Source: Alteromonas abrolhosensis
GTDB taxonomy: Bacteria > Pseudomonadota > Gammaproteobacteria > Enterobacterales > Alteromonadaceae
Direction of reading: 5' to 3'
Assembly (NCBI RefSeq): GCF_001953635.1
Contig: NZ_MEJH01000003.1
Coordinates: 1,019,287 to 1,083,286, forward strand
Length of the DNA stretch: 64,000 nt
Every line of letters starts with the position of its first letter. Position 1 is the first letter of the stretch. This document shows positions 17,427 through 22,147 of the stretch, piece by piece. The translations under genes were made by a program, and so were the position numbers. The notes beneath the pieces were generated by a model. The model was not told the origin of the DNA. It ran no database searches and was given only the letters and a program-made list of their open reading frames with translations.

Positions 17427-20400
17427 ATGATTCATGAGGGTAACACACAAAAGTACAGGCTACGCAGGTCAGCAAAGGTAGTAAATGCATTGTTGGCAAG
17501 CGCGTTGTCTTTAGGGGCTGTTTCAATCAATGTTGCAGCAGAAACGGTTTGGCAAGAAGACTTCGAAGCAAGTGAACTCCAAGGTAAGGGGGCGACTGGC
17601 CCCATTGAAATTGGCACTAACGTGACTATCGAGGGTGTCGATCGTTGGTCAATTGATGTTTCTACAGGCGAATTAAGCGCAACTTCAGATTGGTTTCGCG
17701 TTCAAAACGGCGCGATGCAGGCCCGTGATGTTGATGGTGAAGTGGTATGGCAAAGTGAGTCTATAGACATAACCGGTCAGGGTGACATTACTATCGACGC
17801 TTTGTTATCTAAAAGCGGCACGATGGAAGAGAGTGATTATATAGACGTTTTCTACTCCGTCGACGGTGGAACGTTTGAACTTATTACACCTATCGCTGGT
17901 AGTGCTCACACAGTACAAGACGATTTTGAGAGCGGCAACGTTTCGGCTGCTATTGGCAGCGGTAGTAGCCTTGTTCTTAAAGTTGTTATGTCTAACAACG
18001 CAGGAACTGAATATCTTAATCTTGAGAGTATTACAGTTACCGGGTCTGGTGCCACAGACGGCGGTGACACACCTGACGAGGGCGGAGAGCCTTCAAGCGA
18101 ACTTCTATTCATAAGCGGAGCTTGCTTTAACTGCCCTGATTTAGAAGCAGTTAATTTAGCCAGTGATTATGTTGCGTCTGATTACTATGCGGCGCTTGAC
18201 GCTGCGATTGCAAACGGTGAAAGTGCGCAAACTTTAAAAGAAACAGCACACAACATTATTGAAAATGGTCACCGCACGTTGTCATATTCAGAGGTCTGGA
18301 CGGCGTTAACCTATACAGATGAAGACCCTGCTAATTCAAATAATATTATCTTGTTTTACAAAGGTATCTCTCAGGATAAATTCACCAACGGTAGCGGTAG
18401 CCAAAGCACTAATCAAGACAACTGGAACCGCGAACACGTATGGGCGAAAAGCCACGGGTTCCCTAGTTCAAGCCTGACTGCATACAGCGATATTCTACAT
18501 CTACGTCCTACCGATATTTCGGTGAATAGTTCACGGGGCAACTTGGACTTTGATTTTAGTGACAGCGAACTTTCTGAAGCACCGTTAAATCGTGTCGACA
18601 GTGACTCCTTTGAGCCACGCGATGCGGTTAAAGGTGACGTTGCACGTTCTATGCTTTACATGGATGTTCGTTATGACGGTAATACGGCTGGTGATACAGA
18701 AGACGATTTAGTATTAGTAAATCGCCTCACATCTACGAGTGAAGCGGCATTTGGTAAACTTTGCGTGCTGCTTCAGTGGCATGAAAGTGATCCGGTAGAT
18801 GACTTTGAGCGCCGTCGTAACGAGCGCGTTTATGAGTTCCAAGGCAACCGAAACCCGTTTATCGATAAGCCTGAACTTGCTTCACTTATCTTCAACGAAA
18901 GTTGTGACGGTACAGGTGGCGATACTGGTGGTGATACTGGCGGGGATACTGGTGGTGACACAGGAGGCGGCGAAACTCCTGCAACTAGCAGTATTTACAT
19001 CTCAGAATATATTGAAGGTGGAGACTTTAATAAAGGCATCGAGCTTTTTAATAGTTCTACACAGCCAGTCAGCCTAGCAGGTTATGAGCTGGTTCTTCTT
19101 TCTAATGGTGCTACCGCTGATGCGGATCGCAAGGTTCTTGCATTAGAAGGTACGATCCCTGCGGGTGGCGTAGTCACGTTTGCGCATGCTAGTGCGGCTC
19201 CTTCGCTTACCACTGGAGCCACTCTTAGTAGCTTCGTAATAAATTTCAATGGAGATGACTACATAGAGCTTGTCAATAACGGCCAAGTTATCGACGCGCT
19301 TGGTACATTCGGTGTTAAAACAAACTGGGGTAAGGACGTTACCTTAGTGCGCAAGAGTTCAGTGACCGCAGGTAACCCTAACCGCAACCCAGCTTTCACC
19401 CTAGAAGAGTGGGACAGTCTGCCAAAGGATACCTTTAGCAATTTTGGTACGCATAATGGTTCGGTAAGCGAGCCTACAGATCCTACTGACCCAACCGACC
19501 CAACAGATCCGGTAGCTGATGTCGTACTCATCAGCACGATTCAAGGGGATGGAGATGCATCACCACTTGCGGGGAGCGATGTTGTTGTTGAGGCAGTAGT
19601 GACCAAAGTTGTGTCAGAGATGAACGGATTTTTCATTCAAGAAGAAGCCAGTGACTCAGACGGTAATGCTTCTACTTCTGAAGGCGTGTTCGTTTACTCA
19701 ACGACTTTCACTGAGTTCCCTAGTGTGGGTGACGCTGTGCGTGTAAGCGGTGCAGTAGCCGAATACAACGGCATTACAGAAATTGTACTTAGCGCTAATG
19801 CTGAAGTTCTGGGATCAGGCGATAATATTTTATCGACGAACCTCGAGATGCCATTTGATGAGAGTGTAAACCTTGAATCATTTGAAGGTATGCAGGTTAG
19901 CTTCCAGCAAACCCTTAGTGTAACCGACATATATAACCTAGGGCGCTATGGACAGTTTAACGTTTCATCAGGTCGATTGATGATTCCTACAAACCAATAT
20001 GCAGCAGGCTCGAGCGAAGCGATTGCATTGGCAGAATCTAACGGCCGTAACACATTGTTGATTGATGACGGTTCAAATGCTCAAAACGCTGACGGTATTC
20101 CATTCCCTGTTGGCGGTTTATCACATGATAATCCGTTACGCTTAGGCGACAGCGTTGAAGGCCTTGAAGGTGTAATGCACTATGCATTTGGCGCTTACAA
20201 CTTAATTCCGGTGGGCGATCTTCAAACCGTTCGCACAAATCCGAGAACTAATGCACCACAGCTGGACGCGCAAGGCGATGTTAAAGTGGCAAGCTTTAAC
20301 GTACTTAACTACTTCAACGGTCCGAATTTCCCTACATCTCGTGGCGCAGACTCAGAAACTGAATTTGCCCGTCAGCAGGCGAAGACCGTAGCAGCCATCG

Positions 20401-21410
20401 TGGCAATGGATGCGGACGTCGTTGGTTTAGTGGAAATTGAAAACGACGGATATGGTAGTGATTCTGCTATCGCTTCACTTGTGGATAGCGTAAATGCTGA
20501 AATTGGTAGTGACGTGTACAGCTACGTCGAACTTGAATCATTACTAGGCGGTGATGAAATTGCTGTAGGTATTATTTATAAGCCTGCGACGGTTACGCCG
20601 CAAGGAGCAGCTGTTACTTCCTCTGACACGCCTTTTGACTACGGTAACCGTCAGCCGTTGCTGCAAAGCTTTAGCGTAAATAGTAACGACGAAGCCTTCA
20701 CACTTGCGGTAAATCACTTTAAATCTAAAGGGAGCTGTGGCAGTGCAACAGGTAACGACGCTGACTCGGGTGATGGACAAGGCTGCTGGAACGAACTGCG
20801 TACCCAAGCTGCAGAAGGACTTATAGCCCTTGTTCAACAAAATAGCGAAGTATTGTCTGACCGCGTCATTGTAATGGGCGACTTAAATGCTTATGCGAAG
20901 GAAGATCCCATTCTTGCTTTGGAAAGCGCAGGCTACAGTAACTTGGTAAACGTTTTCGAAGGCGACAGTGCTTACTCGTACAGCTTCGGTGGCGAAATGG
21001 GTTACTTAGATCACGCGTTATCAAGCCCGTCGCTTACAGAGTATGTGGTAGACGCTACGGTTTGGCATATCAACGCTGACGAACCTCGTGTCTTCGACTA
21101 CAACGTTGAATATAAGACTGAAACACAGCTATCAAGCTATTACGGCGCTGATGCTTATCGTTCATCTGACCACGACCCAGTAGTTGTAGTAATGGACTTC
21201 CCTGAAACAAGTGAGCCTGAGCCCATCGTTGGTGATTTTGACGGCGATAGTGACGTTGATAACTACGATGTCGTGGCGTTCTATACGTTGCTTCTACGAA
21301 ATCAAGCAACGGTTGAAGAACATGACTTCAACGGGGATAGCAGACTAAATATCTATGATTTGTATGCGTTAATGTCTATGTGTACACGTACAGCATGTGC
21401 AGTTCAGTAA
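17427..21410 (+). CDS. Exported double nuclease: endonuclease I + LTD + ExeM-type module + dockerin
   Basis: A 1327-residue secreted protein. Order: signal peptide (1-38); jelly-roll-like region (about 40-210); endonuclease I module (about 230-490) with the beta-beta-alpha metal motif NREHVWAKSHGFP and LHLRPTDISVNSSRGNLDF; Gly-Asp-Thr repeat linker (495-515); lamin-tail domain (525-678); PTD repeat linker; OB-like region; endonuclease/exonuclease/phosphatase module (about 950-1255) with FNVLNYFNG, MGDLNAYAKEDP and SSDHDPVVVV. The last 60 residues are a type I dockerin: two calcium loops, DFDGDSDVDNYD and DFNGDSRLNIYD. It should degrade extracellular DNA. ExeM-type nucleases often end in GlyGly-CTERM; here a dockerin replaces it. 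The PEP-CTERM gene starts 5 bp downstream. Confidence 0.93.
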   Translation: MIHEGNTQKYRLRRSAKVVNALLASALSLGAVSINVAAETVWQEDFEASELQGKGATGPIEIGTNVTIEGVDRWSIDVSTGELSATSDWFRVQNGAMQARDVDGEVVWQSESIDITGQGDITIDALLSKSGTMEESDYIDVFYSVDGGTFELITPIAGSAHTVQDDFESGNVSAAIGSGSSLVLKVVMSNNAGTEYLNLESITVTGSGATDGGDTPDEGGEPSSELLFISGACFNCPDLEAVNLASDYVASDYYAALDAAIANGESAQTLKETAHNIIENGHRTLSYSEVWTALTYTDEDPANSNNIILFYKGISQDKFTNGSGSQSTNQDNWNREHVWAKSHGFPSSSLTAYSDILHLRPTDISVNSSRGNLDFDFSDSELSEAPLNRVDSDSFEPRDAVKGDVARSMLYMDVRYDGNTAGDTEDDLVLVNRLTSTSEAAFGKLCVLLQWHESDPVDDFERRRNERVYEFQGNRNPFIDKPELASLIFNESCDGTGGDTGGDTGGDTGGDTGGGETPATSSIYISEYIEGGDFNKGIELFNSSTQPVSLAGYELVLLSNGATADADRKVLALEGTIPAGGVVTFAHASAAPSLTTGATLSSFVINFNGDDYIELVNNGQVIDALGTFGVKTNWGKDVTLVRKSSVTAGNPNRNPAFTLEEWDSLPKDTFSNFGTHNGSVSEPTDPTDPTDPTDPVADVVLISTIQGDGDASPLAGSDVVVEAVVTKVVSEMNGFFIQEEASDSDGNASTSEGVFVYSTTFTEFPSVGDAVRVSGAVAEYNGITEIVLSANAEVLGSGDNILSTNLEMPFDESVNLESFEGMQVSFQQTLSVTDIYNLGRYGQFNVSSGRLMIPTNQYAAGSSEAIALAESNGRNTLLIDDGSNAQNADGIPFPVGGLSHDNPLRLGDSVEGLEGVMHYAFGAYNLIPVGDLQTVRTNPRTNAPQLDAQGDVKVASFNVLNYFNGPNFPTSRGADSETEFARQQAKTVAAIVAMDADVVGLVEIENDGYGSDSAIASLVDSVNAEIGSDVYSYVELESLLGGDEIAVGIIYKPATVTPQGAAVTSSDTPFDYGNRQPLLQSFSVNSNDEAFTLAVNHFKSKGSCGSATGNDADSGDGQGCWNELRTQAAEGLIALVQQNSEVLSDRVIVMGDLNAYAKEDPILALESAGYSNLVNVFEGDSAYSYSFGGEMGYLDHALSSPSLTEYVVDATVWHINADEPRVFDYNVEYKTETQLSSYYGADAYRSSDHDPVVVVMDFPETSEPEPIVGDFDGDSDVDNYDVVAFYTLLLRNQATVEEHDFNGDSRLNIYDLYALMSMCTRTACAVQ

Positions 21411-21415
21411 GTGGA

Positions 21416-22033
21416 ATGAAAATGAAAAAATTTATTTTAATGGTAATGGCTATTGCTAGCTTTAGTGCAAACGCCGCAATAATTGAAATCTCTACGGATA
21501 AAACCATTTATCAAGTAGGGGAAACTATCACGGCAACGGTAAGCTTTTCTAACGAAGATGCGTTCTTAGGAATGACATCGTATCCCCAGTCTTTCGATGT
21601 ATACAACACGACTATTGGGTTTAATGAGTCGCTATTGAGCTTCATTGGCGCTTCTACGTTGAGTCCTTTTGGCGTGACAAGTAGCTTGAGTACTCCCGTG
21701 TTCGAGATGTTTCTACCTCTTTTTCCAGTGGGGGGACTTTTAGAGATAGGCTCACTGGCGTTCTTAGAGGAAATTGACTTGTTTTATCAGTTACAGCTAC
21801 CAGTGATTGGTTTATACACCGTGCAATTTCTTGCACAGTCTGCTGGAGACACAGCAATCAATGGGTTGTCTGGTTCGTATATTTTTCAAGGCACCAGAGG
21901 CGGCGTACTGACACCTATACAAGTAACCAGCGCAACTTTCACCATTGCACAAGTACCAGCGCCAGGAACACTTGTTTTATCGCTTTTGGCTTTAGGCGGC
22001 ATGGTTTTCGCTCGCAAACGTGTGAAGTCATAA
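21416..22033 (+). CDS. PEP-CTERM surface protein with a cohesin-like body
   Basis: About 205 residues. A signal peptide (KKFILMVMAIASFSANA) is followed by a beta-rich region of about 150 residues beginning IIEISTDKTIYQVGETITATV. The pattern VGETITATVSF, then YNTTIGFNESLLSF, then GLYTVQFLAQSAGDTAI resembles cohesin domains. The C-terminus is a PEP-CTERM signal: VPAPGT, a hydrophobic helix, and RKRVKS, so exosortase processing is expected. ATG at 21416 or 21422 is possible. The preceding gene, 5 bp upstream, encodes a dockerin-bearing nuclease, suggesting that this protein may hold it at the cell surface. The cohesin assignment is inferred from pattern only. Confidence 0.82.
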   Translation: MKMKKFILMVMAIASFSANAAIIEISTDKTIYQVGETITATVSFSNEDAFLGMTSYPQSFDVYNTTIGFNESLLSFIGASTLSPFGVTSSLSTPVFEMFLPLFPVGGLLEIGSLAFLEEIDLFYQLQLPVIGLYTVQFLAQSAGDTAINGLSGSYIFQGTRGGVLTPIQVTSATFTIAQVPAPGTLVLSLLALGGMVFARKRVKS

Positions 22034-22052: not shown

Positions 22053-22080
22053 TAAGCCCAGCCTAGTGCTGGGCTTTTTT
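22053..22080 (+). terminator. Rho-independent terminator after the nuclease/PEP-CTERM unit
   Basis: AAGCCCAGC pairs with GCTGGGCTT around a 5-base loop and is followed by TTTTTT. It closes the two-gene unit. Confidence 0.88.
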
Positions 22081-22147
22081 ATTTGTTTACTATTTACATG
22101 CGGCTTCAAATAAACCACACTGAATAAAAACACAATAAGTGCGCACC

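Follow-up and report, generated by a model that had tools for sequence, protein, structure and literature searches.

Here we report on a stretch of 64,000 nucleotides from Alteromonas abrolhosensis (contig NZ_MEJH01000003.1, positions 1,019,287 to 1,083,286; hereafter the window), in which the gene for an extracellular nuclease of the ExeM/NucH family with a C-terminal dockerin is followed on the same strand by the gene for a small cohesin-like PEP-CTERM protein, the proposed anchor. From sequence comparisons we consider it likely, with a probability of about 0.75, that an exosortase-sorted cohesin of this kind keeps its dockerin-tagged enzyme attached to the cell surface. The two domains are identified by profile, the genes adjoin one another, the arrangement is conserved in the genus and general among secreted enzymes, each anchor shows one cohesin match, and an exosortase is present in the genome.

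The nuclease, its dockerin and the adjoining cohesin-like protein

All features described between 17427 and 22083 lie on the + strand. Calling and translation of open reading frames (ORFs) placed the nuclease at 17427-21410 (1327 amino acids, aa) and, separated from it by 5 bp, the PEP-CTERM protein at 21416-22033 (205 aa from its ATG). The nuclease scored 656 bits with the ExeM_NucH_DNase model NF033681 (cut-off 300), its core, including the EEP domain (PF03372), covering residues 721-1257 (19587..21197). The Pfam scan also found an Endonuclease_1 domain (residues 268-483, 18228..18875; PF04231, E 6e-42) and a lamin tail domain, LTD (residues 517-626, 18975..19304; PF00932, E 1.4e-15), and an N-terminal signal peptide was recognized by eye.

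As the original prediction had stated, the nuclease ends in two dockerin calcium loops. Both are complete 12-residue loops with D at positions 1 and 12, as in type I dockerins, and they lie within the last 61 residues of the protein, in a dockerin module (residues 1267-1327, 21225..21407) defined by Pfam scans and the tail alignment: DFDGDSDVDNYD corresponds to residues 1270-1281 (21234..21269) and DFNGDSRLNIYD to residues 1300-1311 (21324..21359), and the motif CTRTAC follows (21381..21398). With a cut-off of 22.9, Pfam Dockerin_1 scored 18.7 bits against the protein and 23.7 bits against the 4.4 Mb genome, where it was the sole match of 3 to exceed the cut-off. When a profile of the dockerin tails was compared with the PDB, the top match was a cellulosomal dockerin (E 1.1e-8); further dockerins came next, interspersed with calmodulin-like proteins, the latter being expected because two EF-type loops give such matches. 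For the alignment, 33 of the 63 tails found were selected with the loop-and-cysteine pattern, so the invariance of the loops is partly a result of that choice. Including ORFs cut at locus ends, 150 distinct ORFs had the dockerin match at the C terminus, 5 at the N terminus and 3 internally, and 138 of the 150 C-terminal ones carry the CxxxxC motif, a possible disulfide. In other genera, six loci have two-loop dockerin-like tails that lack CxxxxC and yet adjoin cohesin-like PEP-CTERM genes.

The full-length GlyGly-CTERM model NF033680 was not matched by the nuclease (451.9 bits, cut-off 1300). The dockerin had been proposed to replace the GlyGly-CTERM tail of related nucleases, which does not hold for this genome: a second ExeM paralogue (G000:C24:46054-47784, its tail seen in L080) carries GlyGly-CTERM, and thus both attachment routes coexist on ExeM paralogues of a single genome.

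The neighboring protein (21416..22033) starts with a putative signal peptide of about 20 residues (21416..21475), assigned by eye; residues A20 and A21 are nearly invariant in the anchor alignment. It ends in a PEP-CTERM sorting signal (21950..22021) made up of VPAPGT, a hydrophobic helix and ARKR, the layout of exosortase substrates (C-terminal PEP motif, helix, basic end). With VPAP as its motif, the signal scored 18.2 bits with TIGR02595 (cut-off 16) and 20.1 bits with the Pfam PEP-CTERM model, slightly below the 20.7 required, so that a PEP-CTERM gene five base pairs past the nuclease, part of the original prediction, was confirmed. The source genome encodes an exosortase (E 3e-41), as do 59/59 genomes of the genus, which deprives this co-occurrence of discriminating power.

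The cohesin-like body proposed for the same protein was supported by one kind of search and not by the other. As a single sequence the 205-aa protein had no Pfam Cohesin match in the protein scan, no PF00963 match was found in the whole genome, and in the PDB its best cohesin (E 0.22) ranked behind a photosystem chain and was not significant. On the other hand, a 34-row profile, built from the 22 anchors of the genus found by sequence (that of the window included) and 12 distinct ExeM-adjacent ones, with one identical row dropped, had cohesins or the cohesin-like modules of NagJ as its first 20 PDB matches (best E 5.2e-14), and the first unrelated chain appeared only at E 0.47. A 30-row profile with more distant relatives, whose rows were loci of our choice, gave cohesins or NagJ modules as its first 24 matches and then antibody chains from E 0.015. 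Pfam Cohesin at E up to 1 matched 8 of the 34 profile members (best 1.3e-4), the window protein remaining unmatched, and the NCBIfam matches of the anchors were nearly all to PEP-CTERM and similar tail models, with none to a cohesin family. The anchor is therefore clearly predicted as cohesin-like by its family profile, not by its single sequence, with approximate domain limits of 21473..21930. Its nearest named relative in a single-protein search was from Alteromonas marina (44%), and no match was found on plasmids at E 1e-5.

Just 3' of the anchor gene lies a terminator-like hairpin (22054-22076; 22054..22083 with its T run), a consensus match only, in a region where 7 such matches were found and 4.6 were expected; the nuclease and anchor genes therefore probably form one transcription unit, a small operon. 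The adjacency and one-to-one pairing of the two genes would fit equally well a cohesin-like protein that binds the dockerin as an escort or chaperone, for solubility or passage through the envelope, the complex being released afterwards with no lasting anchor. Both proteins have signal peptides by eye, and the published model, in a passage of PMC1569441, has EpsH cleave the C-terminal anchoring sequence, so that attachment may not be lasting. A PEP-CTERM tail would nevertheless be superfluous for an escort, and this part of the protein is conserved along the anchor alignments, which makes release of the complex unlikely compared with lasting attachment of the nuclease through the anchor.

Conservation of the pair in the genus

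ExeM/NucH was found in 55 of the 59 genomes of the genus, mostly in two classes, with frames of ~860-910 aa ending in GlyGly-CTERM and longer frames, mostly of 1190-1550 aa, ending in a dockerin. The exceptions were L051 and L105, with neither tail, L077, a dockerin form in a frame of 888 aa, and G043, whose nuclease is split over two frames. The tail profile detected 70 dockerin genes in the genus below E 1e-6 (a split pair in G039 being counted once), among which 52 encode ExeM, and a cohesin-like gene lies directly downstream of 35 of these 52. While 13 of the 35 ExeM-adjacent anchors were first noticed because they follow ExeM, 22 were detected by sequence alone, and all 22 adjoin a dockerin-tailed ExeM (in G039 at a contig end). 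Conservation in related genomes, which had been set as a test of the original prediction, is thus seen in 35 of the 52 dockerin-ExeMs of the genus and in the recurrence of the pair across the family.

Among the 18 dockerin genes of the genus that do not encode ExeM, 16 have a cohesin-like gene no more than 5 kb away, sometimes upstream or across a small gene; the products of those scanned are porphyranase-like, BNR_4 (ulvan-lyase or rhamnosidase-like), M4 peptidase and VWA/DUF1194 proteins. In 13 of 14 further loci with anchor matches of E 1e-24 to 9e-10 we found the dockerin gene of another enzyme, the exception being L119. The weaker anchor matches L119 and L122-L127 (E 2e-10 to 4e-5) are PEP-CTERM genes with no dockerin gene in the stretch examined, and we count them as misses, not as pairs. 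Nine weak dockerin matches in frames of ~400 aa (E 5e-5 to 8.5e-4) were excluded from the counts; L132, the sole one read, has no dockerin tail.

A chance origin of this adjacency was rejected by comparison with other PEP-CTERM genes. For the 150 PEP-CTERM places listed for the genus, no dockerin match was closer than 500 bp and 4 places had one within 5 kb, one of these being itself an anchor, whereas of the 51 anchors matched at E 9e-10 or better, 45 had a dockerin within 500 bp and 50 within 5 kb; the control list consists of strong motifs, and most anchors, that of the window included, have weaker motifs and are absent from it. Since related genomes are not independent, P values are overstated and the Fisher values serve only as a guide, the repeated association with unrelated enzymes being the stronger argument.

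Generality in the family and beyond

Across 246 genomes of the family, the dockerin profile found matches in 125 (E up to 1e-5) and the anchor profile in 121 (E up to 1e-6), each in 37 of 52 genera, with both present in 110 genomes and neither in another 110. The lists of both profiles are limited to 150 matches each. Of the 150 anchors listed, 89 are no more than 500 bp from a listed dockerin, in every case downstream of it and on the same strand with a median gap of 39 bp, and 8 more lie within 5 kb of one. We inspected the DNA around the remaining 53 for dockerin genes: 40 are directly preceded by one on the same strand, 4 are directly followed by one, 1 has it downstream across one small frame and 1 on the opposite strand, 842 bp off; 3 (L174, L184, L213) have a downstream gene with an N-terminal dockerin just past the signal peptide, and 2 show a two-loop tail by eye only. 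In total, a dockerin-bearing gene lies within 5 kb of 148 of the 150 anchors listed; for two of these it was recognized by eye alone.

The partners belong to diverse enzyme classes. Pfam domains of 28 dockerin proteins of our choice included M9 collagenase (4), EEP nuclease (4), M4 peptidase (3), BNR_4 (2), VWA (2), porphyranase (1) and glucuronyl esterase (1), among others, and the gene pair is thus not special to nucleases and is general across secreted enzymes. This bears on the idea that the small protein is an inhibitor shielding the cell from its own nuclease, for which the juxtaposition of a toxic enzyme and a small partner would speak. The same family stands beside collagenases, thermolysin-like proteases, ulvan-lyase-like proteins and porphyranases, and the common factor is the dockerin and not the active site; we rejected inhibition on these grounds and give it next to no credence beside a cohesin that retains its dockerin-tagged enzyme.

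Of 369 genomes spread across the class, 20 carry the anchor at E up to 1e-8. At 18 places examined outside the family, the short stretch around the anchor gave a dockerin match (E up to 1e-3) in 8 cases and showed two loops by eye in 3 more.

Some loci depart from the usual arrangement. In the three family loci with an N-terminal dockerin, and also in L224 and L226, the dockerin follows the signal peptide of a secreted protein and the cohesin-like gene lies upstream. An upstream anchor gene was found in these five cases and also in some with a C-terminal dockerin (e.g. L118, L190, L196), so gene order alone says little. L216 holds four dockerin genes and two cohesin-like genes, and in L218 two dockerin genes alternate with two cohesin-like genes; such tandem arrangements within a locus would require either pair specificity or sharing. 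At L234, outside the family, a 473-aa ORF (1441-2862) combines a cohesin-like part (residues 20-184) with a two-loop tail by eye, and it is perhaps an adaptor with both modules. Elsewhere in the window, positions 25306-46000 resemble by eye a pectin-use cluster, with pectinesterase, polygalacturonase, a TonB receptor, sugar-acid enzymes and a TRAP transporter.

Proposed surface attachment and comparison with known systems

The anchors diverge fast, with a mean distance of 0.72 compared with 0.34 (nuclease core) and 0.39 (dockerin). Dockerin and anchor distances were correlated (r 0.78; partial r 0.43 controlling for the nuclease core, permutation P 1e-4, 26 pairs), and close linkage could contribute to this correlation.

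Together with the non-significant single-sequence search, the composition of the control list and the relatedness of the genomes, several results weigh against surface attachment through the pair. No anchor gene adjoins 17 of the 52 dockerin-ExeMs of the genus, and genome G005 lacks any anchor match at E 1e-6; the dockerin can thus be retained on its own or with some other partner. In the family, 15 of the 246 genomes matched the dockerin profile alone and 11 the anchor profile alone. No dockerin was found in the stretches examined around L119 (anchor match E 2e-10), L198 and L210, nor at 7 of the 18 places outside the family. Dockerin distances track those of the nuclease core (r 0.87) more closely than those of the anchor. 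Finally, according to PMC6085458, ExeM of S. oneidensis lacking its putative C-terminal anchor still remained in the cytoplasmic membrane fraction, and the location of such nucleases may therefore not depend on the tail.

The 17 partner-less ExeMs, of which 11 continue beyond CxxxxC with an extra tail, and the dockerin genes of L130 and L131, with no cohesin-like gene nearby, would agree with a dockerin that works without its neighbor, either as a calcium-stabilized C-terminal cap or with other surface partners, the PEP-CTERM protein being an unrelated, co-transcribed exopolysaccharide protein. We think this quite improbable: the neighbor is specifically cohesin-like, it recurs beside unrelated enzymes, and no dockerin lay within 500 bp of any of the 150 PEP-CTERM places listed for the genus. 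The 17 may have another anchor or put the dockerin to a second use.

With respect to the partner-less proteins themselves, the extra tails mostly end in basic sequences (e.g. ..LRSLFR, ..RLSR), none was seen on partnered ExeMs, and they are a possible alternative attachment signal. The dockerin proteins of L130 and L131 (757 and 737 aa) stand beside a conserved gene of ~430 aa, with no cohesin-like gene in the stretch examined.

In the mechanism that we favor, attachment of the enzyme by an exosortase-sorted cohesin, the small operon would produce an extracellular DNase together with its private anchor, and the signal peptides would take both proteins into the periplasm. The anchor, a single cohesin module, would have its PEP-CTERM tail processed by the exosortase of the genome and would reach the outer surface or the exopolysaccharide, where the C-terminal dockerin, folded around two Ca2+, would bind the cohesin and so keep the DNase at the cell instead of letting it diffuse away; the binding, its calcium dependence, the exosortase processing and the surface location are what we infer. 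The same one-enzyme, one-anchor plan would also serve many other secreted depolymerases of the family. With somewhat less assurance, we lean towards a widespread modular display system in Gammaproteobacteria, in which a monovalent exosortase-sorted cohesin encoded beside each dockerin-bearing depolymerase (DNases, collagenases, thermolysins, porphyranases, ulvan-lyase-like enzymes and more) would be specific for its pair, several enzymes being displayed per cell without a scaffold.

Cellulosomal pairs such as that of ScaB from Acetivibrio cellulolyticus (PDB 3l8q/1qzn) share with the present pair a cohesin-like module, here recognized by profile, and a two-loop dockerin on the enzyme. A cellulosome was nevertheless rejected as an explanation: each anchor has one cohesin match and is encoded next to its own enzyme, and the loci examined contain neither an ORF with two cohesin matches nor one that matches both profiles; the unit is therefore no scaffold. 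In the source genome itself the anchor profile has 1 match at E 1e-6 and Pfam Cohesin none. Further differences are an exosortase-type tail instead of SLH or LPxTG, the CxxxxC motif of most C-terminal dockerins, and substrates that, judged by domain, are DNA, protein and algal polysaccharide.

Non-cellulosomal cohesin and dockerin modules have been described (Peer et al. 2009, cited in PMC5244752), and a passage of PMC5244752 reports them as abundant in anaerobic methanotrophic (ANME) archaea, with a hypothetical role in adhesion, and calls their function outside the cellulosome unknown. Those modules and ours have in common that both occur outside cellulosomes in cells with exosortase or archaeosortase systems; here, in contrast to what that passage describes, they recur as a unit of two genes whose enzyme cargo is defined. 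Long-type ulvan lyases, for which a type II dockerin repeat is reported (Kopel 2016, as cited by PMC11101340), resemble our proteins in having a dockerin on a secreted depolymerase, perhaps of the BNR_4 class seen here, but the passage of PMC11101340 names no cohesin partner. As described in parts of PMC6085458, ExeM of S. oneidensis has the same nuclease core family (NF033681) and a proposed action on DNA near the cell, whereas its tail consists of GlyGly and a membrane helix (rhombosortase, PMC3237569) in place of a dockerin and a separate cohesin-like protein. In a 2024 genome survey of cellulosome bacteria, the words Proteobacteria, Gammaproteobacteria, Pseudomonadota and Alteromonas were absent from the main text in a word search.

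Our literature searches, which left most subscription journals outside their coverage, found no paper combining dockerin with PEP-CTERM and none combining dockerin, cohesin and extracellular nuclease, and among the titles listed for dockerins in Alteromonas, Pseudoalteromonas, ulvan lyases and gammaproteobacterial surfaces none dealt with such a pair. Cohesin-dockerin binding and PEP-CTERM sorting are each already known. What appears new, in that these searches did not find it, is the linkage of a cohesin-dockerin kind of interaction to exosortase sorting, in a monovalent form and one-to-one with its enzyme.

To our knowledge, the role of most PEP-CTERM proteins is open. The recurrent pair joins two questions, the function of non-cellulosomal cohesins and dockerins and that of PEP-CTERM proteins, and both become testable. 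If the proposed attachment is true, it would supply many natural, possibly orthogonal cohesin-dockerin pairs and would explain how free-living marine bacteria keep their depolymerases close.

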